Shown piece by piece: positions 363-13,107 of a stretch of 13,107 nucleotides of DNA. The position numbers and the translations under genes are program-made. Every line of letters begins with the position of its first letter. The stretch's first letter is position 1. The notes under the pieces are model-generated. The model saw only the letters and a list, made by a program, of their open reading frames with translations, did not search any database and had not been told where the DNA came from. This DNA is from Tubulinosema ratisbonensis (lineage: Eukaryota; Microsporidia; Tubulinosematidae), in NCBI GenBank assembly GCA_004000155.1, contig RCSS01000061.1, positions 1 to 13,107 on the forward strand. The letters run 5' to 3'.

Positions 363-1321
363 TCACTCTTGGTTTAATGATCGCAAAACATACCTCATTT
401 TATTCCTATAATATCCTTCAATATCCTCACAAGAAATAAGATTGTATCCATGTATTTTAGGCGACATCAAAAAATTCTCTTCTATAGAATTTTCCCTTTT
501 ACATGATTTTTCTATTTTGAAAACTTTTCTCCAATACTGGTTAAAATGGTGAATAACGTGATAAAAAAATAAATTCAATATTAGAATTACGCAAAAAATT
601 TGATCTCTCTGTATTTGTAAAAAGGAACATTATATAAAATAAAAAAACATAGCTTAACTCCTTTTCACTTAATACATTTATTAACTCTTTTAAAATAGTA
701 AAAAAGAGGCTGAATTAAAAGGAGTGCTTTGTGTACCATAGTAGATGACTTGTAAATATTTAATGCGCAGCATATATAAATGTTTCTTGAACGTATATAA
801 GGAAATATAGATATAACAGATTTACTAATTGGAGATCCACCTTTTGAAGCTCTAATAAAAATATTAAACCTAAATTCATCAATAAAAAACAAATTGCGAT
901 GCAGAAAATTACCCTTGAAGAGAGACAAAGTCTTGGGAGTGTTTAATCTTTAATAAATTACTGACGTTGTTTCTTTTTTTTAAAATTAGATAAACTTTTT
1001 TTAAGTATGACGGAAGTCTTTAATTAATTTAGAAACTGTTGTAATTGACACATTAAAACGCAATCGGGTTCATATTTCTATAAATAGTACGATTGTTATT
1101 AATCAAGATTTTATGTTGATTTCATGTTCATTTGTTACTTTTTTTGGGTTAAACACTGTTCTTATCTTTTTATCGATTAGGCCGGTTCCCATATAACTCT
1201 TAATAATTTTATGTATTGTGGTTCGAATTATACTTAGAATTCGTGATATCTAAAATACGCTATGTCTGTTATCATATGCTTCTATGATTTGTCTACTTAT
1301 AAAATGAGAAATTGTGGTCAT
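363..1321 (-). pseudogene. Broken Tc1/mariner (IS630-like) transposase
   Basis: The minus strand can be followed from an ATG at 1319-1321 to a TGA at 363-365, about 320 codons, the usual length for this family. The N-terminal part reads as a helix-turn-helix followed by a stretch of the 'KKVTNEHE' type. It has in-frame stops in the 1080-1260 region and a frameshift near 1005. The middle (665-928) is open and carries FIDEFRFN, which matches the DDE-fold strand with a catalytic Asp, then SRNIYICCALN. Near 545-590 another frame reads FLSRYSPF, the family's 'LPPYSPxLNPIE' segment with the third acidic residue. A further frameshift follows, and the C-terminus (363-578) contains EGYYRNKMRYV. No intact protein can be made. 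It sits inside the inverted repeats, so it is the element's own transposase. Confidence 0.82.
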
Positions 1322-1340
1322 AGATAAAAAATTTTAAAAT

Positions 1341-1458
1341 TAATTTATTTTTAAAAATTAAAATATTTATATGTAAGAATAAATGGTTATTTTATGAATA
1401 TAAATGTTTATGCTGTGTATACTAATGTCTAAATTGTGATAATGACTCGGTAACCCTG
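1341..1458 (-). repeat. Right terminal inverted repeat of Tc1/mariner element
   Basis: Read on the minus strand from 1458 downward, it starts CAGGGTTACC and aligns with 224-340 with only small indels. It shares the 15-mer AAACATTTATATTCA at base 50 from the end. The TA at 1459-1460 is the flanking target dinucleotide. Confidence 0.8.
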
Positions 1459-1460
1459 TA

Positions 1461-1599
1461 AATAAAATCGCCGAATCAACAATTTTTTAAATGATTTAAA
1501 AGCACACATTNTCTTAATAAGATNAAACAAGCAATTTTAGNTCGCTTCGAATGTAAAATACTGTATAAAAAATTCAAAAGAGGCATGATATATTATATA
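1461..1599. other. AT-rich flank of the transposon, no gene seen
   Basis: The DNA right of the transposon's TA has no open frame worth reporting. It holds three ambiguous bases (1511, 1524, 1541). Confidence 0.5.
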
Positions 1600-1924
1600 A
1601 AAATTGTTATGATACTTTTTCGATATCACTTTAATTTTCTATACCTTCAGTAAATATTGTGGTACATTAGGTAACCACATCAAAATTAACCAATCAGAAA
1701 ATACCAAAAATTATTAATAAAAATATTTCAACTTCTAAGGGGACCAGAAGAAAAACGAATAAACAACTTAAATGAAAGTCTATTCAACAATCTTGTTTGA
1801 GGTGTGTTATCTATCCTTGATGGATTACTTTGTTTTTAAAGAAGTATTCAATAAAGTTTTGTTGTGACAATTTATCTAAATATAAAATATTCTCATTAGT
1901 TCCTTTTTTTATTATTATACTCAT
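1600..1924 (-). pseudogene. Relic of a dispersed repeat, possible transposase N-terminus
   Basis: A small minus-strand ORF (1811-1924, 37 codons, ATG start) contains KLSQQNFIEYFFKNKVI and stops at TAG. Continuing on the minus strand, the DNA matches 8150-8296: an exact 18-mer (1781-1798 and 8279-8296) is followed by about 100 bases of looser similarity. 'FIEYFF' near the start is reminiscent of microsporidian ISXO2/Merlin-type transposases, but no zinc-binding or DDE motif survives, so the identity is only a suggestion. It is best treated as one of three decayed copies of one repeat (see 4933-5420 and 7960-8440). Confidence 0.4.
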
Positions 1925-2014
1925 GTTTACTTTTCTGGGATTAAAATGTAAATAAAGTTATTAATAAATATAAATTATCATTTTGTTTTAACAGTGTGAA
2001 ACGCCGAAATATTT

Positions 2015-2300
2015 TTACAAATCGTTTTTTAAGTGACTGTTATTCAGATTAATCTTTTTGAGTTTTACTGAGAATTTATACTTTTTTTTGCGGGAATTTT
2101 TAGCGAGCATTTTCTGTTCATTAATAGAACAAGTTTCATCATCTTGCTCCTCCGTATAAGGTCTTAAGTTTTTTAAATTGTGCCGTCTATTTGACCATTT
2201 ATTAAAATATTTACCCTGCCATGAAAATTATTCATTTTTTCGATATTATGAAACCCTTTCCATTGTTCATCTAATTTCTTAATGTTAAAATTTTTTAGTA
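2015..2300 (-). pseudogene. Frame-broken fragment, possibly Myb/SANT-like
   Basis: Two overlapping minus-strand frames look like one broken gene. The upstream part (about 2300-2200) reads KKLDEQWKGFHNIEK. The frame then shifts, and the downstream part (2015 to about 2227, TAA at 2015-2017) reads FNKWSNRRHNLKNL, then PYTEEQDDE and a lysine/asparagine-rich tail. A Trp, then a basic 'KW.NR..NL', then 'TEEQDDE', resembles the junction of two Myb repeats ('RW.N.L...WTEEEDE'). Only one Trp-spaced helix set is visible and the frame is disrupted, so the family call is weak. No intact start is seen. It could also be unrelated degraded coding sequence. Confidence 0.35.
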
Positions 2301-3163
2301 ATTACAGTAAAACCTCTATTCAAGGCACAGCATAATTACTTTATTTTATTAAAGACAAAATTAAAATTTAATTTTTATTTTTGAAGGGAAATTAATGTAT
2401 AAATTTAATTTTATATGGCAAAATTCAAATTCATAAAAAATATTATATTAACATAATTTTCTTTACCTTTATTTATGACAAAAAAAAAATATTTATCATT
2501 TGAAAATATGAAAGGAATATTTAACAATTTAAAATAAAGCCGAATACAAAATATCTTTAATAAATACTCTTTCTTAAAAAGAATGTTGTATCGTATAAAG
2601 GATTATATGAAAGATATTGTGGTAACCTGTTGATTTGTAAGTTTTATTAAATTTATTTTTATTATTATTATTTAGTAAAAGTAAAGGGGTTATATAATGA
2701 AATATTCTTTTTATCCAGAGTTTTTTCTAAAAAACTCTTAGGGTTACAATAATATTATCAAACTATGCATTATATTTACAAATTTCAAAATTAATAACAA
2801 TTCCTTTAACTCATAACATTCTTAGTTTTAAGCTTAGAGTGTGTAAGAACCCATTTATATTAAAATAAGTATCTCGAGTGAACCTAAACTAGTAAAATTA
2901 AAATTTTATTCAAAAATAAAAACTTGTTTTATGATAATTTTTGAGATTTTCTGAAAATAGTCAATAAATTTTTTCATTTAAAAATGAGGTTGTGTAAAAA
3001 ATTATATTTATTCTATAATTCTAATCATTATTGTATAATTCAGAATCATTGTATGAGTGATTTAGACAAAACTGCATAAAAAAATAAAATAAATAATTTA
3101 CAGTAATTTATTAAAATTTATTTTATTTAATTTAAATATAAAAATAATAAATCATTTATTTCA
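2301..3163. other. AT-rich gene-free stretch upstream of Rpb12
   Basis: About 860 bases of very AT-rich DNA with no open frame that looks coding on either strand. The sequence immediately upstream of the Rpb12 ATG is A/T only, apart from a C two bases before it, with no CCC or GGG motif. Confidence 0.5.
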
Positions 3164-3319
3164 ATGGAAGAAGACTCAAACAAATACCAGTACGAATGTT
3201 TAGATTGTAAAGAAACAGTAATCTTGACAGAGAAATCACAAATAAGATGTACATACTGCTCATACAGAATACTTAGAAAGAAAAGAAGTGATAAACCAGT
3301 ACAATTCGAGGCAAGATAA
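3164..3319 (+). CDS. RPB12: RNA polymerases I/II/III subunit RPABC4 (Rpb12/Rpc10)
   Basis: This encodes a 51-residue protein, the smallest shared subunit of the three nuclear RNA polymerases. In known structures this subunit is a zinc ribbon bridging the Rpb2 and Rpb3 side of the enzyme and helping assembly. Cys12, Cys15, Cys29 and Cys32 form the C-X2-C-X13-C-X2-C site. The run IRCTYCSYRILRKKRS followed by VQFEAR matches the highly conserved 'IRCxxCGxRIxYKKRT...VxFxAR' end of the family, including the C-terminal Arg. The canonical Gly after the fourth Cys (CGYR) is Ser33 here. The N-terminus is trimmed relative to yeast. The stop is 5 bp from the stop of the convergent U1-C-like gene. AATAAA overlaps the stop codon (3319-3324) and may be a poly(A) signal. 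Confidence 0.95.
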   Translation: MEEDSNKYQYECLDCKETVILTEKSQIRCTYCSYRILRKKRSDKPVQFEAR

Positions 3320-3324
3320 ATAAA

Positions 3325-3519
3325 TTAATTTGATTTTTTTGTATTATTCTGTTTATACACATAATCCAAATATTTTAACTTATTTTTATCTTGTAAAACT
3401 TCTAAAAAGTATGTTTTTTTATTCAAATTGTGTTTCATTCCTTTTAAGTGCATTAATCTTCCTGTCAAGTGTTGGTGAAATAAAAATACTTTGCAATATT
3501 CACAATAATACTTTTTCAT
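3325..3519 (-). CDS. U1-C-type C2H2 zinc finger protein (U1 snRNP C-like)
   Basis: A 64-residue protein that is almost entirely the zinc finger of U1 snRNP subunit C (Yhc1 in yeast), which helps the U1 particle engage 5' splice sites. Starting MKKYYCEYC, its Cys6, Cys9, His24 and His30 fall at exactly the U1-C positions, and His15, Arg21, Gly27 and Lys29 also agree. The C-X2-C-X14-H-X5-H spacing fits U1-C better than the related ZMAT5/U11-U12-20K finger, which has one residue fewer between the second Cys and the first His. The tail after residue 50 is short and Lys/Asn-rich, with no proline-rich region, so the protein is minimal. It converges on RPB12 (5 bp apart) and diverges from ASF1 (57 bp). 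If the call is right, the organism keeps at least part of the spliceosome. Confidence 0.72.
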   Translation of the reverse strand: MKKYYCEYCKVFLFHQHLTGRLMHLKGMKHNLNKKTYFLEVLQDKNKLKYLDYVYKQNNTKKSN

Positions 3520-3576
3520 TTATGGATTAATAAATTAATTAAATAAACCAATAAAAAAATATTTTAAAAATTGCCC
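3520..3576. promoter_or_regulatory. 57-bp shared divergent promoter region (U1-C-like / ASF1)
   Basis: This is the whole interval between the minus-strand start at 3519 and the plus-strand ASF1 start at 3577. Both promoters must fit here or overlap coding sequence. It is A/T only apart from the CCC beside the ASF1 start, two other C and two G residues. Such short spacers are normal in microsporidia. Confidence 0.55.
3574..3576 (+). promoter_or_regulatory. CCC motif directly before the ASF1 ATG
   Basis: CCC abuts the ATG at 3577. A CCC- or GGG-like motif just upstream of start codons is an established microsporidian gene-start signal. It supports ATG 3577 over the in-frame TTG at 3571 and supports the taxonomic assignment. 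Confidence 0.6.
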
Positions 3577-4620
3577 ATGTCAGTTACGTTTAAGAAAATT
3601 AAGCCTTCTTCTACAACCCAGTTGTTAAAGGATCCAATGACATTTTCGGTTGTGTTGGAGTGTGAAGAGATTAAGGATGACCTTGATTTTGAGATATCTT
3701 ACTCTGTAGATCCTCATACCGAAGAATTTGATCAAAAAATTGCCGTTCTTANTGTTGGGCCTATTCCTAAAGGAAATATTGGATTTAACATTGAAACTGA
3801 TCCAATTAATTTTAATTTGTTAAAACCTGAACATATTTTTGGGCTTACCTCTGTGATTATTGTAGGAAAATANAAAGAAGTNCCTTTTTTAAGAGTAGGT
3901 TACATTTTTGAAGTGAAGTATCCTGGGATTGATAATAAGTATTTGGTAAAAGAGGATGAAATAGGAGAAGGAATGGATTCAGAAGAAAATACCCTTAGAC
4001 AAAGTGATGAATGTCAGTGCGAGGGAGAATGTCAATGTGAATTAGAAGAAGAGGAGCAGTGCCAATGTGAGGGAGAATGTCAATGCGAATTGAAAGAAGA
4101 ACACGAATGTGAATGTGAAGGAGAGTGTCAATGTGAATTAGAAGAAGAGTGTCAGTGCGAAGGAGAATGTCAGTGTGAATTAGAAGAAGAGTGTCAGTGC
4201 GAAGGAGAATGTCAGTGCGAATTAGAAGAAGAGTGTCAGTGCGAGGGAGACTGTCAATGTGAATTAGAGGAATGTGAAGAAGATTGTGAGTGTGAAAACG
4301 AAAAAACACAAGAAGAAGAAATCAAACCAGAAAACAACGAAGAAATAAAAGAAAACTTATCAAAAAAAGTAAAACTAAGCTCACCTTATTTACCAGACCC
4401 ACTTAACAACATTTCAGTCGAGTCTCTCGTAAACGAATCTTCTTTTACTGAAATACAAAAAAAAATGGATGAGCCATTACTTCCACCTATTTTAGATGAG
4501 AATATTTTAGAAGAAAATAAGATTAATGTTAATGGTATTACTTTAGATAAAACTAAAATAGAAATAGAGTTTAAAGAACCTCCTTTAGTGACTGTATTTC
4601 AAATTGAGTGGGATAAATAA
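3577..4620 (+). CDS. ASF1: Histone H3-H4 chaperone ASF1 with internal Cys-rich insertion
   Basis: A nuclear histone chaperone that binds H3-H4 dimers during replication-coupled and other chromatin assembly. The 347-residue protein starts MSVTFKKIKPSS. The Asf1 core is recognisable: LECEEIKDDLDFEISYS (about 28-44, retaining the acidic 'DL' H3-binding strand), VGPIPKG (60-66, family VGPVPxG) and PFLRVGY (103-109, family FVRVGYY, with the H3-H4-contact Arg kept). The final strand VTVFQIEWDK (338-347) matches the family's VTRFNIVWD. In ordinary Asf1 about 30 residues link the last two segments; here there are more than 220. The insertion contains six acidic Cys-X-Cys units (146-233) and a charged, low-complexity stretch. 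Yeast has an acidic tail after the core, whereas here the acid is inside it. Ambiguous codons: residue 59 (ANT) and residue 99 (TAN). Tyr fits 99, because a stop would remove RVGY; GTN at 102 is Val. Confidence 0.9.
   Translation: MSVTFKKIKPSSTTQLLKDPMTFSVVLECEEIKDDLDFEISYSVDPHTEEFDQKIAVLXVGPIPKGNIGFNIETDPINFNLLKPEHIFGLTSVIIVGKXKEXPFLRVGYIFEVKYPGIDNKYLVKEDEIGEGMDSEENTLRQSDECQCEGECQCELEEEEQCQCEGECQCELKEEHECECEGECQCELEEECQCEGECQCELEEECQCEGECQCELEEECQCEGDCQCELEECEEDCECENEKTQEEEIKPENNEEIKENLSKKVKLSSPYLPDPLNNISVESLVNESSFTEIQKKMDEPLLPPILDENILEENKINVNGITLDKTKIEIEFKEPPLVTVFQIEWDK
4012..4275 (+). repeat. Six tandem 42/48-bp repeats encoding C-X-C-X3-C-X-C units
   Basis: In-frame repeats inside ASF1 begin at 4012, 4060, 4108, 4150, 4192 and 4234. 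The first two are 48 bp (16 codons) and the others 42 bp (14 codons). Each encodes the pattern CQCEGECQCELEEE with small changes, giving four cysteines per unit and 24 in all. Three more cysteines follow at 4276-4293. The last three units are almost identical at the DNA level, suggesting recent expansion, while the first three have diverged more. The reverse strand is also open here (3995-4309), a by-product of the repeat. Confidence 0.92.
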
Positions 4621-4932
4621 AGTTTTTATGATTTATTAAAAAAAAAGAAATTATAAAATAATTTATTTTATTTAAGAATGATGATAGTAAATTATATTTA
4701 AAAAGAAAGACATAAAATAATAAACAAGAAATATTTATTTAATTAAATTAATTATTTATTTACACATTAAAATAAATTAAAGATAAAATGTTTTAAGAAA
4801 TTATTAAATAATAAAATTTTTTCTGACCTTAAACAATTTTTTATAATGAATTTTATTAACTTAGTTCTTAATAAAGCTACATTAGTTTACATATAACATT
4901 TGGTTAATATATTAATTAAAGTCAATTTCTAG
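4621..4932. other. AT-rich stretch after ASF1, no gene seen
   Basis: Nothing beyond A/T-rich low-complexity DNA. There is no convincing open frame on either strand. Confidence 0.5.
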
Positions 4933-5420
4933 TAAATAGGTATTTATATTTTATATAGAAGGTATAGCAAAAGATCTTAGTATGAATTTCATCTTTAGGC
5001 AACAAAAAAAAATCAATTGAAGCAAAATGATTTTATTATAAAACTTCTACATTGTTTTTTTTAATTTTTAGAGGGTAACAAACACAATTCTAAAATACCT
5101 TTTATTTAGTACAATAAATTATTACTATTTTGATATAAAATTGTTAATCGTTTTGTAAGGAAATCATGATAATAAAAAATATAAGTTTCTTTTAAAATTG
5201 TCAGATTTAATTTACAAAACTTTAATTTAGAACTACAAAAAAAGATAAATAGTTATATAAGAACATTAAGAAGATTAAATGTCTCATGTAAAAAGACTCT
5301 AATTTCAGATTAATTAATAAATAAATTAAAAAGTTTTTGAGTAATAAGGTTAAGAGTAATGAAGAACAGGTGTGACTAACATAGCCAAACTAATTTCAAG
5401 GATTAAAGAAGATAAAAAGA
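4933..5420. repeat. Diverged copy of a dispersed repeat
   Basis: Two blocks match the region 8093-8440 in the same order and orientation. The first, from taaatagg at 4933 through tttatat.agaagg, corresponds to 8093-8130. The second, gtaataagg followed by taag.gta and aacag (about 5341-5370), corresponds to about 8409-8432. The blocks are about 410 bases apart here and about 315 there. No open frame survives. It is probably a remnant of the same mobile element as 1600-1924 and 7960-8440. Confidence 0.4.
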
Positions 5421-6577
5421 ACATATTACAACATGATCGTAGTAAATTTTAAATAAAATTGTTTTATATTCAATATACAGTGCTCGTGGGTAAAAAATCT
5501 TACTCTAAAGAAGATTGTACATATATTTTAATTTCGATAAACAACAAAGGGTATGGATTAAATATATGATTTTACTTTTATTTTCTGAAATTACAAAAAA
5601 AACTATCTGACGAATGATTTATAGTAAATAAAGAAGGGGCTATTTACATAAAAAAGTCAAGGTAGGAACTAAAAAAAATAAGGAGAAGAGTAAGTCATCA
5701 CAAATAATTAAATATTTAAATTAATACCTGACAAATATGTAAAAAAGTATTTTATATTTATTTTGCTAAATTACTTCTAAAGCAATAATAGTTTCCTAAT
5801 TATAATTTATCGCATAAGAAAAGATGCCTTAAATAAAATTTTAATCCAAAAAAAAATAAGTTAAAATATCTTTTTAGTTAAGTTATAAAAAACGTAAAAA
5901 ACACTTTTTATACAATGTGTTTTAGAACTATAATTCAAAATAAATCATTAAAGGTAATGGTATATTAAGAAAAAAGAAGCAATTTAAAATTCTCTACTCA
6001 AAAAGTAATGTTTTAAACAAATATGATAGATTTCTCTTAACTTTAACAATCTCTAAATTAAAAATCATCAAATTATTTAGAAACCAAAACAAAATATAAT
6101 AAAGTTCGTTGTTTTGCTTAACTAATATGTCTGTAAAGTAAAATTAATACATTTATAATAAAATACTATCAATAATTAATATTCCCAAGCAAAGAATATT
6201 TAAGAAAATAATTACAACAAGTATTTTTTTATTGCCTAAAGATGAGAAATCTATAAAAAACTTTTATACTCTAAAAATACTGCCAGTATCATATTTGATT
6301 CACTTAATTCATTATAAATAGGAATACTATGTTTATTTCAGAGTTAGATAGTTTATATCTTCAATATTTTAATGGGTTGTTTGAAAATAAAAGGTAAATG
6401 ACAAGAATCTGCATCTAAAAGTGTGCGTAACTCTCTTTATAATCTTTTTTTACCAAAATGTATATTACTTCATTTACAACTTACTTTCTCTTAAAGATTA
6501 GAGTCTAAGAATATTTTCCAAAATAAAAATTTTTTATTTTTAAATAAAAATTTAAAAAATAAATTTTCAATTCTAAA
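5421..6577. other. Long AT-rich stretch upstream of TRM11, no convincing gene
   Basis: About 1.15 kb with only very short open frames. The best seen is a 22-codon plus-strand frame (6329-6397) reading MFISELDSLYLQYFNGLF, which I do not regard as a gene. The last 40 bases before TRM11 are A/T except for two C, with no CCC or GGG motif. Confidence 0.45.
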
Positions 6578-7738
6578 ATGTTATTCATTTTTCATTACAC
6601 AAATTTAAATACATCAAGAATAGAAACTTACACACTTTTTAAAAGAAACAACTTAAACTATAAAGTAATAACCAGTATCCCAGGATATCCTTACGATATA
6701 ATAAACACTTCTTTTGAAAATATTAACATTCTACTAAAAAGACTTGGTTTAATTCATCACATAAGCATATTCCTAGGATACGACAACGAAATACATCCTT
6801 ATTACTTAAAATACAACATAAAAACACAACTAGAACTAATAAATCTAATCGAGTCATATGATTTCTGTAAAGAAAAAGTAAAAAAAGGAAGATTTTTTAA
6901 AATAAATTTTTATAAAAAAAATGTACAAAAAAACCAAGAAGATTTTATTAAAGAAAAGGCATTTTTGTTAGAAAATAAAGAAATAAACTCACAAGGATTG
7001 ATTTTAGAAATAAACATTTATAAAGAAAAATTGTTGATGGGAATATTTTACAAAAAATCAATAAGAAAAGAATTATTAAAATTCGATGTTAAAAATTTAG
7101 ATTTTATTGGAAGAACAAGCATGAAAGTAGAAAACTGTATTCTTGTAACAAATCTTACCAATGCTTGTGCTAATCAAATTGTTTACGATCCTTTTTGTGG
7201 AAGTGGTTCTTTGTTAAATATTTTTGCTTATTTTGGGTGTAAAGTCTTAGGAAGTGATTTGAATAAACGTGAAATGATAGGTAAAAATACACAAAAAGGT
7301 AAAATACGTACACTTTTAAAAGGATTTAATGTGTATTCTAATTTTACAAAATACAATTTAAGCAAAAATTTAATTGGTTTTTTACAAAGTGATATTAACA
7401 ATTCACCAGTGAAATATTCAGATTTTATTGTTACTGACATACCTTATGGNGTTAGAATACATATGAAGAATGAGGTTTATTTTTATATTGAATCATTGTT
7501 TAAACTTGCTAAAAGAATTTTACCAACTAAAGGTATTTTAGCATTTTTTTCACCATCAGTTTCAATACAAGAAAAAGAGTTTGTTTTGTTAAACAAGGTA
7601 GATGAGAAATTAGGGACAGTTAGTAGAAGTTTATATATTTTTGAGAAANTAGGNANANTTATTCATTTTTTTAAATTATTTCATAAATCATTTACAATTT
7701 TTAATATAATTATTGTTTTGGGGTGGATATTGGTTTAG
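6578..7738 (+). CDS. TRM11: tRNA (guanine10-N2)-methyltransferase catalytic subunit TRM11
   Basis: A SAM-dependent methyltransferase that, with partner Trm112, makes m2G at position 10 of tRNAs. The N-terminal half (about 1-170), where Trm11 has its THUMP-containing region, is Lys/Asn/Ile-rich and poorly conserved. The catalytic domain is clear: GRTSM (178-182, family 'GxTSMD'), then VYDPFCGSGSLL (202-213), the SAM-binding motif I (DPFxGTGS in the family), LGSDLN with the ribose-binding acidic residue, and TDIPYGVR (286-293), the catalytic motif IV. The usual N/D-P-P-Y is D-I-P-Y here; GGN at 291 is Gly whatever the base. At 386 residues it is shorter than yeast Trm11. Four ambiguous bases (7649, 7654, 7656, 7658) precede a hydrophobic 25-residue tail that looks unlike Trm11, so the true C-terminus may lie near residue 358. 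Confidence 0.88.
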   Translation: MLFIFHYTNLNTSRIETYTLFKRNNLNYKVITSIPGYPYDIINTSFENINILLKRLGLIHHISIFLGYDNEIHPYYLKYNIKTQLELINLIESYDFCKEKVKKGRFFKINFYKKNVQKNQEDFIKEKAFLLENKEINSQGLILEINIYKEKLLMGIFYKKSIRKELLKFDVKNLDFIGRTSMKVENCILVTNLTNACANQIVYDPFCGSGSLLNIFAYFGCKVLGSDLNKREMIGKNTQKGKIRTLLKGFNVYSNFTKYNLSKNLIGFLQSDINNSPVKYSDFIVTDIPYXVRIHMKNEVYFYIESLFKLAKRILPTKGILAFFSPSVSIQEKEFVLLNKVDEKLGTVSRSLYIFEKXXXXIHFFKLFHKSFTIFNIIIVLGWILV

Positions 7739-8650: not shown

Positions 8651-9532
8651 TTATTTTTCATTACAAATCTCAAAATATTTTTCATACTCAGATTCTGTCA
8701 TTCTTTCTAAATCTTCTTCTGTTATTTCATAAACACACTTTTTTACTTTATTAACATACACCATTTTATTACTAATTGATTCAGGTTGTATACTTTGTAC
8801 AACTACTTCTTCTACCTTTTCTTGAATAATTATTTCTTTTTCGTCTATTTCTTCTACCACTTCTTTTTCTTCGTCTATTCCTTCTTCTTTCTTTATTTCT
8901 GGCTTCTTTACTACTTCTAAAGAATCTTTCTTCTTTTTTAACTCTAATATTTGAAAATAATCCATAAATGGTACGTCCATTTGATCAATCTCTTTAAGTA
9001 ACCCAATAATTGTTTGTAATGTTTCCATAGTTACCCCATAAATATTATGAGGATCATTCTCTATCACTCTCCTACTTTCTTCTAAGGTACCTTTGCACTC
9101 ATCGCACTGGAACAAAAAATCTTTCATCAGAGATTGAGCATCCAAAATAGAAAACTCTTTCTTACACGTTGTACACACAAATATCTCTTCACTTTTACCC
9201 ATTTCTTGTTCTAATAGCTTAGTCATTTTATAAATTTTAAATTTGATAACATCTTTGACTTCGCCGTAATTAATGTAGAAAGCTTGTCTTATTTCCTGGT
9301 AATTGTTTTCTCTGTTTTCTATCTTAGTTTCTTGTTTTATGATTTTATCTTCCTTCAACTTAAACACTATTTTGTTAAATTCTTTTGGTACTACTTTAAG
9401 AATAGAAGCTATTTCTGAATCGAATATTAGCATTTTCTTTAAAAGAATATCGCAGAATATTATCTGAGAATTGTCGTAAAATAATCTTACAACATGTCTT
9501 ATAAGTTTTTGCATTTTTGGCTCNTAATCCAT
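8651..9532 (-). CDS. TFA1: Transcription initiation factor IIE subunit alpha (TFIIE-alpha)
   Basis: Large subunit of TFIIE, which joins the RNA polymerase II preinitiation complex, recruits TFIIH and helps promoter opening. Residues about 5-105 form the extended winged helix: RHVVRLFYDNSQIIFCDILL, then a 'KEFNKIVFKLKEDKII' recognition segment and the YINYGEVKDVIKFKIYKM end that matches the family's 'fyYIdy+.fvdvvkyrl..m'. The zinc ribbon follows, with Cys120, Cys123, Cys143 and Cys146. The C-terminal part (about 200-293) is Lys/Glu-rich, with EEKEVVEEIDEKE, and has an acidic end like other TFIIE-alpha tails. At 293 residues it is much shorter than yeast Tfa1 (about 480). Codon 3 is TAN. If it is TAA or TAG, translation would start at Met7 (9512-9514), which still keeps the whole domain. 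It diverges from the MCM9-like gene. Confidence 0.9.
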   Translation of the reverse strand: MDXEPKMQKLIRHVVRLFYDNSQIIFCDILLKKMLIFDSEIASILKVVPKEFNKIVFKLKEDKIIKQETKIENRENNYQEIRQAFYINYGEVKDVIKFKIYKMTKLLEQEMGKSEEIFVCTTCKKEFSILDAQSLMKDFLFQCDECKGTLEESRRVIENDPHNIYGVTMETLQTIIGLLKEIDQMDVPFMDYFQILELKKKKDSLEVVKKPEIKKEEGIDEEKEVVEEIDEKEIIIQEKVEEVVVQSIQPESISNKMVYVNKVKKCVYEITEEDLERMTESEYEKYFEICNEK

Positions 9533-9714: not shown

Positions 9715-11343
9715 ATGTTAAATTTATTAGCTCATATCAACAGATCATCAGAAATAAACTTAATAGACCTATACCATTTATTCCCAGACCTAATACACCA
9801 ATTAATAAGTGATACTTCTTTCTTTGCAGACCTACTAAAATCAAAAAAGCTTACCGGTATACCAAAATCACTNGTTCAAAAATTTCCATCTTCCTCCGAA
9901 ATCAACAAACTTATTNCCGTANTAGGAACAATAGTAAAGAATGGCCAGGTATTGTTGAACAACGTAAAACTAACTTATACTTGTGTTAAATGTAATTCAT
10001 TCTGTGAAACTAAAGAGATTTGTGACCAGTGTGGGTGTACAGAATTAATCAAATCGGAAAACTTTTCTTCTGCTATGAAATGTCAGAAGATACGGGTACA
10101 AGATATAAGTAATCCGTCTTGTTTGTCCGAGACACTTGAGATTGTTTTATCGGATGATTTTGCTGGCTTGTTTTTACCTGGGGAAAGAATTTTGNTAACA
10201 GGTATTGTAAAATTAAAAATTAACTGTACAAAAATNGAGATGGACATGAAACCGTCAATTTATTTGGAAGCATTNGATATACAAAGAGAAGAATTAGATA
10301 ATCTGTCAGATATTGATGANTCTTTGTTTTTAGAGTTTAATAATTTTACCAATTTCGAGAAAAGAAAATTTTTAATTGAAGGATTTAAAAATGAGATCAG
10401 CGGATGGAACAATGTTAAATTGGGGATGTTGCTTGCTTTAGCTAAAGGAACTATGAATGGGCGTAGATCAACTATACATATTCTTTTGGTTGGTAATCCT
10501 AGCACCGGCAAAACTTTTTTGATGGACGGGTGCTTAAAAATGATTTTTCCTAGTGTTTATGTCAATGGACTAGGCACAACTGATGCAGGATTAACTACTT
10601 GTGCAGTAAAACAAGGAAAAGAATGGGGCTTAGAGGCCGGTGCTCTTGTTTTGTCTGATATGGGATTGTGTTGCATAGATGAATTGGATGCAATAAAGTC
10701 ACAAGATTGTAATGGTTTATTAGAAGCAATGGAACAACAAACTTTAAGCATAGCGAAAGCAGGTTTAGTTACAACTTTAAATGCCAGAACAAGTGTAATA
10801 GCTTCCATTACAGCTAAGTTTAAATATGACACATTCGAAGATCTCATTTCTTCCAACTCATTAGCCACTCCTCTATTAACAAGGTTTGATTTAATTTTTG
10901 GGATGTTTGAAAACAAAAACGAAGACACAAACATTGTTAACAAAATATTCGCCAGAAAAATAAAACCAAACGACAAGCAATTAAAAACGTGGAGCAATAA
11001 AATTTTTAAAGTTTATTTACAAAATTTAAGAAAAAAAGAGTTAGAAATTCAGTTAGAAGAAAGAGAANTTTTACTAAATTATTACAATAAAAAAAGAAAA
11101 TTGGCAGGCAAAACTTCCGAATTTTTTTCTATTAGGTTGTTAGAAGGACTGATGAGGTTGGTAGAAGCACATGCTAAACTGATTTGTAAGGATGTGATTG
11201 ATAAGGATGATGTTTATAGTGTGATAATTTTATACGAATATTCACTTTGTACCAAAAGATTTATAAATGTTGGTGATGAAGTATTCATCAACGAGAATGA
11301 GTTTAAAAAAATTAAAGAAAAGTTGATTAATAAATTAAAATGA
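9715..11343 (+). CDS. MCM-family AAA+ DNA helicase, MCM9-like
   Basis: A 542-residue minichromosome maintenance protein. The N-terminal OB domain carries a zinc finger with Cys90, Cys93, Cys103 and Cys106. The AAA+ domain has Walker A GNPSTGKT (260-267), Walker B CCIDE (Asp322, Glu323) and the arginine finger in LLTRFD (Arg390). The lid helices follow (RLLEGLMRLVEAHAKL). The stretch EWGLEAGALVLSDMGLCCIDE, then EAMEQQTLSIAKAGLV and FENKNED, resembles MCM9 (EWNLEAGALVL.D.GLCCIDE, DTKNED) more than MCM2-7; 'LLEAMEQQ' also recalls MCM8. MCM8-MCM9 is known for homologous-recombination repair and fork rescue. The sensor-1 Asn (family 'AATNP') appears replaced by Thr366 in ASITAKF. It lacks the long C-terminal tail of animal MCM9. 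Ambiguous bases affect single residues only. I recall the residues rather than a computed alignment, so the subfamily needs a tree. Confidence 0.9.
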   Translation: MLNLLAHINRSSEINLIDLYHLFPDLIHQLISDTSFFADLLKSKKLTGIPKSXVQKFPSSSEINKLIXVXGTIVKNGQVLLNNVKLTYTCVKCNSFCETKEICDQCGCTELIKSENFSSAMKCQKIRVQDISNPSCLSETLEIVLSDDFAGLFLPGERILXTGIVKLKINCTKXEMDMKPSIYLEAXDIQREELDNLSDIDXSLFLEFNNFTNFEKRKFLIEGFKNEISGWNNVKLGMLLALAKGTMNGRRSTIHILLVGNPSTGKTFLMDGCLKMIFPSVYVNGLGTTDAGLTTCAVKQGKEWGLEAGALVLSDMGLCCIDELDAIKSQDCNGLLEAMEQQTLSIAKAGLVTTLNARTSVIASITAKFKYDTFEDLISSNSLATPLLTRFDLIFGMFENKNEDTNIVNKIFARKIKPNDKQLKTWSNKIFKVYLQNLRKKELEIQLEEREXLLNYYNKKRKLAGKTSEFFSIRLLEGLMRLVEAHAKLICKDVIDKDDVYSVIILYEYSLCTKRFINVGDEVFINENEFKKIKEKLINKLK

Positions 11344-12160
11344 TAAAAAAATTTTTTAAACTAAGTTGTTTTTTTGAGAAAAAAAATTGATTGAAAATTT
11401 TTTTTGTAACCTTGCAGTATTTTTCAAAACAAATTTAAATAAAAAAATTCTTCCTAAGAGTCTTCATTTTGCTTTTTCTTATGTTATAAAAAAAATAATT
11501 TTTTTAAACATGTAATCTTTTTTATTACTGAAGAAATATATCTCAGTTTATACAATTAGTAATTGGTCTTAATGTATTAAATTTATTTAACTTAATAATA
11601 ATCTTGAAGAAAAGGCATTATTCAGAGAATTTTATTTTCTAAAAAAAAGTAAATAAAGCATGGAAAGACATTGTTTGATAAATATGTCTTTTTTTGAGTA
11701 AATATTTAATTATTAAGTTTTAACTAAAAAACTATTTAAATGTCTAACAAAATAAAAGAAGTAGAAGTTTTAAAAAAAATTTTATACGGGGTTATTTAAT
11801 AAAAACAAATAAAAAATTATCAATACTACTTTTTACTTAAAATACCACAACCTAAAGGCACACACTCGACCTTTCCAAATTAAATTAAAAATTAGAGTAT
11901 AAAAAATTTTACAAAATAGTGCAAATAATATTATTTTTGAATTAAAAAAATTATTTAACAAAATACCTTCAAATAATAATAAAAGAAACTACAATTTATT
12001 TGTCGATAATATTTTTTTGTAGATTTCATTACCGTATAAAAATTTATTCCAAAAGTATTGATATTAAATTAAAGGATTTGTCTTTTGTTTTTGTTTGTAC
12101 ATAAAAATCTATATCACAACCATTTATAATTTAATAAATCATCTTACATTAATTCTTTAT
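11344..12160. other. AT-rich stretch after the MCM gene, no gene seen
   Basis: About 800 bases of A/T-rich DNA with long T runs just after the stop codon and no coding-like open frame on either strand. Confidence 0.5.
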
Positions 12161-12186
12161 TTGTTCAGTGTTTGAATACCGAACAA
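12161..12186. repeat. Hairpin, 9-bp stem and 8-base loop
   Basis: TTGTTCAGT (12161-12169) pairs with ACCGAACAA (12178-12186) with one A-C mismatch. It is more GC-containing than its surroundings. No gene is nearby, so no role can be assigned. It could be a decayed repeat end. Confidence 0.45.
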
Positions 12187-12506
12187 CTCTTAAATTTTAT
12201 TACCTCATGTAATCTACAGCCTGAAGTATATTTAATCATTTAAAAATTAATCAATTTTTATTTTTTAGATATTGGAGATAAATTACTTGATATAAAAAAT
12301 CAAAAAGAAATTTCTTAAAAGTTATTACTAAATTTTAAAGCTGAAATGGCATATTTTTCTATTTCGTTGACACAAGAATTAGAAATATAAATTTTAAAAT
12401 GAAAAAAAATTAAAAAGCGTATTGAAAATTCTAATGCTGTTAATTAAAAGATTAGGGTTTTGTTTTTTATTCATCATTTCGAAAAAATTTTGATATTTCT
12501 TTCATT
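12187..12506. other. AT-rich stretch, no gene seen
   Basis: Only tiny frames occur, such as a 14-codon ATG frame near 12346 (MAYFSISLTQELEI). Nothing is supported as a gene. Confidence 0.45.
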
Positions 12507-12620
12507 ATGTACTATTTAAAAAGTTTAATAGATCCTAGTTCAATAGCTTTGACAGATAGTTGTGTGAATGAAATCTTTTCTCAAGTAAAATATAAGATAA
12601 AGCGATTATATCGAAAATAA
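12507..12620 (+). pseudogene. 37-codon ORF, possible transposase fragment
   Basis: ATG to TAA, starting MYYLKSLIDPSSIALTDS. 'IDPSSIALTDSC' resembles the segment around the second catalytic Asp of ISXO2/Merlin-type transposases ('I.pGS.I.TD.w'). The next family landmark, a 'VNHS'-like string, is not found in any frame downstream. It may be a decayed fragment or a chance ORF. No other match is recognised. Confidence 0.3.
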
Positions 12621-13107
12621 ACACTTGGAACTTACATTAAAGAATTAAATTTTATAATAATTTATATTAACTTGGTATCTTAAATATTTCTACAAACTGA
12701 GTTAAGAAAATAAATAATTGGTAATTTTTTATTTGTTTTTTTTAGTTCCTAGAACCAAGAAGGTGGTTCATAAATATATTTAATATACCACCCATTCATT
12801 ATAAAAAATTATATCTAGCACTCCTTAAATAAATCTTCAAAGAAATTTCTATTCAGCTGAAATGTAATCATGTTAAATATGTTTTATCTTTTTAATGAAA
12901 TAGAATATGAAATTTTTAATTTTACAGATTAAAATTAGAACATGTAAATGAATTGTATAATTTTAAGTAAATAATAAATTATATAATTTTAATTAATTAG
13001 AGTCTAATGAAATATGAACGTTATATTTTGTTCCTATCTAAAACCTCTTAATTTTATTCATGACAAAATTCATTTACAGTGGTTTTCATAAATATATTCC
13101 CAATTTT
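12621..13107. other. AT-rich window end, no gene seen
   Basis: No coding-like frame. A small stem (GGTGGT 12762-12767 with ACCACC 12787-12792, 19-base loop) is the only structured element noticed. Confidence 0.45.

Follow-up and report, generated by a model that had tools for sequence, protein, structure and literature searches.

Few chromatin proteins are as conserved as Asf1, which normally has a compact core. In yeast the core is followed by a C-terminal tail that is acidic and not cysteine-rich. Metallothioneins, for their part, are defined as small free-standing proteins with a very high content of cysteine, arranged in CXC, CC and CXXC motifs, and with no or few aromatic residues.

The residues of yeast Asf1 described as contacting histone H3 are D54, V94, L96, Y112, R145 and T147, and the V94A substitution alone was reported to abolish H3 pull-down (PMC1762009). 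For the human complex, the final strand of the ASF1 core is described as the pairing partner of the strand at the C-terminus of H4 (PMC4537477). The tail of Saccharomyces cerevisiae Asf1 is reported to promote binding of H3/H4 and to strengthen binding of CAF-1 (PMC3526290). Among the metallothioneins of Tetrahymena, those of subfamily 7b carry a CKCXXCKC block and have been described, tentatively, as copper thioneins (PMC1808422).

The stretch of DNA analysed in this study (hereafter the window) comprises 13,107 bases of the genome assembly of the microsporidian Tubulinosema ratisbonensis and contains a gene for an Asf1 that carries an acidic, cysteine-rich insert of about 185 residues (125-307), the cysteine array within it occupying residues 146-239. 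A limited survey of the literature on Asf1, microsporidia and metallothionein found no Asf1 bearing a domain that is rich in cysteine or binds metal, and no metal-gated histone chaperone. The statement of the first-pass annotation that it knew of no described Asf1 with such a domain therefore agrees with this limited survey, although a protein of Anncaliia algerae with a like domain is already present in the databases, filed as hypothetical.

The Asf1 gene and the layout of its core

The open reading frame begins with ATG and remains open to a TAA codon, encoding 347 amino acids. Judged from sequence comparison, its product is Asf1. The Asf1 family PF04729 was recognised at residues 3-117 (profile positions 4-119), scoring 74.5 bits where the cut-off is 27, which bears out the Asf1 landmarks claimed in the first-pass annotation. 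A PDB search at E <= 0.001 matched 30 distinct sequences, every one of them named Asf1 or Cia1. This gene is the sole PF04729 match in the 4.12 Mb genome assembly, which, to the extent that it is complete, shows no additional Asf1 of the ordinary kind. The features of the gene that concern the start and the core are as follows.

3577..4620, forward strand: Asf1 gene, single open frame (open reading frame and PF04729 match)
3574..3576, forward strand: possible microsporidian start signal CCC, directly 5' of the Asf1 ATG
3577..3948, forward strand: residues 1-124, forming the N-terminal portion of the core, with the Pfam match at 3-117 (Pfam, PDB, identity with A. algerae)
4498..4617, forward strand: predicted C-terminal end of the core (residues 308-347), made up of a loop and the final strand (strand and joined-core tests)
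4576..4614, forward strand: predicted final Asf1 strand EPPLVTVFQIEWD, residues 334-346 (8/13 identical to Schizosaccharomyces pombe Cia1)

The Pfam match ends well before the C-terminus. Compared with the end of S. pombe Cia1 (EKPRVTRFNIQWD), the peptide EPPLVTVFQIEWD scored 44 with 8 of 13 identities, the runner-up among the 9,420 stop-free 13-mers in the six frames of the window scored 21, and a score of 44 was not reached in any of 3,000 tail shuffles. The same residues, 334-346, carry the pattern P-x-V-T-x-F-x-I-x-W of the final strand at the end of the core. Taken alone, the last 34 residues gave no Asf1 match against PDB and Pfam. When residues 125-307 were removed in silico, PF04729 covered positions 4-154 of its 154 with 84.1 bits, while the same core joined to five shuffled tails gave 74.7-76.5 bits, so that the real tail gains 7.6 to 9.4 bits; with shuffled tails the match ended at profile positions 119-121 in four cases of five and at 151 in one. 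Once the insert is removed, the sequence thus belongs with the Ig-like Asf1 core of about 155 residues known from S. pombe Cia1 (2cu9) and human ASF1A/B. The window protein differs from these in having the insert before the final strand and only one residue after the core.

Because of the score of the strand and the completion of the profile by the joined core, the core appears to be split just before its final strand, and an interruption between the last two strands of Asf1, as the first-pass annotation had proposed, is supported by these comparisons. Two details of that proposal changed: the last strand is present, best placed at residues 334-346 rather than at 338-347, and the extra residues, large in number as claimed, amount to about 185 instead of about 200.

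The CCC preceding the ATG resembles a CCC-type signal described immediately 5' of most coding starts in Encephalitozoon cuniculi, and also described in further microsporidia, A. algerae included, where it stands 5' of genes for ribosomal proteins (PMC2803860). Its support as a start signal is only modest, since neither CCC nor GGG occurs within 15 bases 5' of the start in the three other window genes checked; CCC occurs 23 times in the window. Isolated N bases occupy 20 single positions across the window, of which 3752, 3873 and 3882 lie within the Asf1 gene and none lies inside the cysteine repeat; these scattered positions are possibly heterozygous sites.

Elsewhere in the window, an MCM-family helicase of 542 amino acids (9715-11343, forward strand) has its best PDB matches in MCM9, at 232.4 and 228.5 bits, the next-best match to an MCM other than MCM9 scoring 171.2 bits. 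An MCM9-like gene would be unexpected in a microsporidian. A TFIIE alpha gene lies at 8651-9532 on the reverse strand (PF02002, 44.7 bits), and a methyltransferase-like gene at 6578-7738 on the forward strand matches UPF0020 above its cut-off and TIGR01177 below its own. Stop-to-stop frames of at least 90 codons are absent from the long stretches 950-3567, 4621-6562 and 11341-13107, which is sparse for a microsporidian contig. Searches of the window for tRNA genes and Rfam families gave no matches.

The cysteine-rich insert and its counterpart in Anncaliia algerae

Within the insert, the following features were located.

4012..4293, forward strand: cysteine-rich, acidic domain at residues 146-239 with 27 Cys and 13 CXC (motif count, TRF)
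4012..4038, forward strand: unit 1, CQCEGECQC (motif count)
4060..4086, forward strand: unit 2, CQCEGECQC (motif count)
4108..4134, forward strand: unit 3, CECEGECQC (motif count)
4150..4176, forward strand: unit 4, CQCEGECQC (motif count)
4192..4218, forward strand: unit 5, CQCEGECQC (motif count)
4234..4260, forward strand: unit 6, CQCEGDCQC (motif count)
4312..4497, forward strand: linker of residues 246-307, without clear similarity to A. algerae (alignment)

The six units of pattern C-X-C-X3-C-X-C start at residues 146, 162, 178, 192, 206 and 220, with spacings of 16, 16, 14, 14 and 14 residues between successive starts. Residues 138-245 contain 27 cysteines in 108 positions, 45 acidic and 3 basic residues, and no phenylalanine, tryptophan or tyrosine. 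The six units in a strongly acidic context, as first described, were thus confirmed by count; the figure of 27 cysteines holds for the domain, the whole protein having 28 with the addition of C29. In 5,000 shuffles of residues 138-245 the pattern C-X-C-X3-C-X-C occurred 0.33 times on average and at most four times, against the six observed. Neither CC nor CXXC is present, against 5.3 and 6.4 expected from shuffles. The number of CXC motifs (13) falls inside the shuffle range (mean 6.5, maximum 14), so it is the spacing, and not the number of CXC motifs, that is unusual.

At the DNA level, TRF reported a 42-bp unit present in 5.9 copies at 4012-4272, with 84% matches. Over the 42 bases from the start of each of the six units, 14 sites are variable and ten of them are third codon positions. 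Pairwise comparison of the units over these bases gave 79 codon differences, 59 synonymous and 20 not, the pairs not being independent of each other. Delimiting the units by the amino-acid motif favours synonymous changes (46/56 differences; 7/8 variable sites), and the 42-base count was preferred to this biased one. The predominance of synonymous differences makes the units look held at the protein level, with the same reservation that unit pairs are not independent. No second copy of the cysteine domain was found in the genome assembly beyond this gene (one candidate scored).

A homology search with 61 candidates yielded one scored homologue, H311_01482 of A. algerae PRA109, a partial hypothetical protein of 327 residues. 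It is 75% identical to the window Asf1 over residues 1-130 and carries an acidic cysteine-rich domain at the same place as the insert. All 27 cysteines of the window domain align with cysteines of the A. algerae stretch, which has 29, although several gaps are needed; in the same alignment 27 of 40 aspartate or glutamate positions and 5 of 28 remaining residues are kept. When the A. algerae domain was fully shuffled, 19.2 cysteines aligned on average and 25 at most. When CXC blocks were kept intact during shuffling the average was 22.2, one shuffle in 1,000 reached 27 and none in 1,000 reached the alignment score.

Each of the two domains contains 13 CXC motifs. The A. algerae domain has its own repeat unit, with a period of 26 residues compared with 16 and 14 in the window, and its exact C-X-C-X3-C-X-C motifs number three, inside the shuffle range (mean 0.36, maximum 4). 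It also contains two CXXC motifs and four tyrosines, and the linkers of the two proteins are not alike. No final strand was seen in the visible end of the partial A. algerae record (best score 9), and its core joined to the last 40 residues of that record gave 77.1 bits with the match ending at 122. Alignment with this other microsporidian protein upheld a comparable domain in the two species; the final strand is not visible in the partial record.

That A. algerae carries a comparable domain in this position disfavours an accident of one genome. A search with the core only examined 26 candidates and found no homologue at E <= 0.01, and a search with the cysteine domain examined 1,142 candidates and found none at E <= 0.001. 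The latter is a weak test, since A. algerae was missed as well, and domains of this kind are hard to find in such a way. Because the search needs shared words of five residues, its null results are no evidence that Asf1 of other microsporidia is without the domain.

Proposed metal binding and alternative readings of the insert

The composition of the insert, with its share of cysteine, its CXC motifs and its lack of aromatic residues, is that of a metallothionein. It is not a small free-standing protein, being placed inside an Asf1 of 347 residues. Pfam metallothionein models gave no match to the domain at E values up to 10, the only match being to Bactofilin at 16.5 bits, below the cut-off. 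Repeated CXC pairs are shared with Tetrahymena subfamily 7b, in which the spacer is X2, lysine is present and the proteins are free-standing, in contrast to the X3 spacer with glutamine and glutamate of the window insert; the acidic spacing of the insert is likewise unlike the cysteine-juxtaposed lysines described for Tetrahymena metallothioneins (PMC1808422). Accordingly, the domain may work like a metallothionein, yet is not filed as one.

The reading preferred here, and held to be somewhat probable from the sequence comparisons given above, is that the insert is an acidic, metallothionein-like metal-thiolate domain carried by the H3-H4 chaperone Asf1 and tuning its hold on H3-H4. Each C-X-C-X3-C-X-C unit would form one four-thiolate Zn(II) site; alternatively, the whole array would form a Cu(I)-thiolate cluster. 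Free of metal, the insert would form an open loop of polyanionic character in contact with basic histone tails; loaded, it would become compact and fix the hinge beside the final strand, which in human ASF1 is the partner of H4. Loading would alter the hinge in shape and in charge, and hence the grip on H3-H4, and the metal or redox state would in this manner set the tightness with which H3-H4 is held or handed over. ZIP zinc transporters are present in the genome assembly, and a search of it for a Ctr copper transporter, run without a positive control, gave no match.

A possible reading, though a distinctly less probable one, takes the insert as an acidic arm, a polyanionic histone-binding loop that would replace the C-terminal tail of yeast Asf1 in its job, the cysteines serving disulfides or solubility and not metal. 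The excess of acidic over basic residues is what such an arm would show, and the yeast tail, with its reported effects on H3/H4 and CAF-1, is likewise an extra partner-binding segment on Asf1; it differs in following the core, the window insert lying inside it. Against this reading, the acidic residues are less strictly kept between the two species than the cysteines (27/40 against 27/27), and a purely acidic arm needs no regular CXC spacing.

The tandem structure of the DNA would also suit a functionless low-complexity repeat, expanded by slippage within a surface loop that tolerates it, and the difference in repeat unit between the two species, together with the lack of conservation in the rest of the linker, agrees with such an origin. 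This is considered unlikely, since all window cysteines remain aligned though the cores are 25% different, and since the codon differences between units are mainly synonymous, with the above reservation about unit pairs.

Paired CXC motifs without CXXC are more typical of metal thiolates. This regularity counts against the insert being a redox sensor, in which reversible disulfides formed under oxidative attack would alter Asf1 and halt chromatin assembly with no metal bound in the cell; the cysteines, dense and aligned between species, would fit such a sensor, and it is nevertheless judged quite improbable. Least credible of all is an artefact, the repeat being an assembly error, an intron or a part of another protein: an assembler can miscount copies of a 42-bp repeat and one possible splice donor, GTGAGT, occurs in the open reading frame at 4286, but the frame is open throughout, GTAAGT, GTTAGT and GTATGT are all absent from it, the six units differ in DNA sequence and the like domain of A. 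algerae is in the same frame and place.

Histone contacts and meaning of the insert

Two of the H3-contact residues of yeast Asf1 are kept in the window protein according to the PDB alignments, D54 as D52 and T147 as T339, and L96 is conservatively replaced by I94. The equivalents of V94, Y112, R145 and V45 are changed to S92, I110, L337 and S43, respectively, which sets the window Asf1 apart from Asf1/Cia1. In these assignments we take R145 and T147 to lie in PRVTRF, and the human and yeast numbering of the final strand is assumed in the same way. With the equivalents of V94, Y112 and R145 changed, histone binding by the window Asf1 cannot simply be assumed. S43, S92 and I110 are common to the window Asf1 and A. 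algerae, so H3 binding may have changed together with its partner, or may have weakened.

Neither H3 nor H4 was found in a search of the genome assembly, a result that by itself shows nothing, and MCM matches in the assembly number only five; together this points to an incomplete assembly or an incomplete search. A histone-fold protein encoded elsewhere in the genome was read as H2B-like, below the Pfam cut-off, with a long run of N nearby. HIRA gave no match in the genome assembly in a search without a positive control. An MCM2-like protein encoded elsewhere in the genome has, near its N-terminus, the peptide DYKSLPELDTYD, which resembles the histone-binding region of MCM2; the protein matched five PDB sequences at E <= 1, all of them MCM2, with a best E of 0.061. 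A small frame matching a histone-fold family adjoins this gene. The peptide DYKSLPELDTYD fits, as a weak indication, a relay Asf1-H3-H4-MCM2 that would have been kept in this organism.

Copper reductase activity has been reported for histone H3, the likely site lying at the H3-H3' interface, where L126 takes an axial or tuning position (PMC11134540). Asf1 is described as covering this interface, with V92 and V94 of the yeast protein contacting L126 of H3 (PMC1762009). A more specific proposal, which is regarded as improbable, is that the domain is a metal acceptor at the histone, taking up or withholding Cu(I) or Zn as H3-H4 comes apart or comes together, in the manner of a metal-gated chaperone; the assembly of chromatin in a parasite would then be coupled to its supply of metal.

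If the preferred reading of the insert as a metal-thiolate domain is true, an insert beside the strand that meets H4, common to two species, would suggest that the supply of histones can be tied directly to metal or redox state. It would offer a testable approach to the proposed handling of copper by H3, and to the management of chromatin by a parasite living on the metal of its host.
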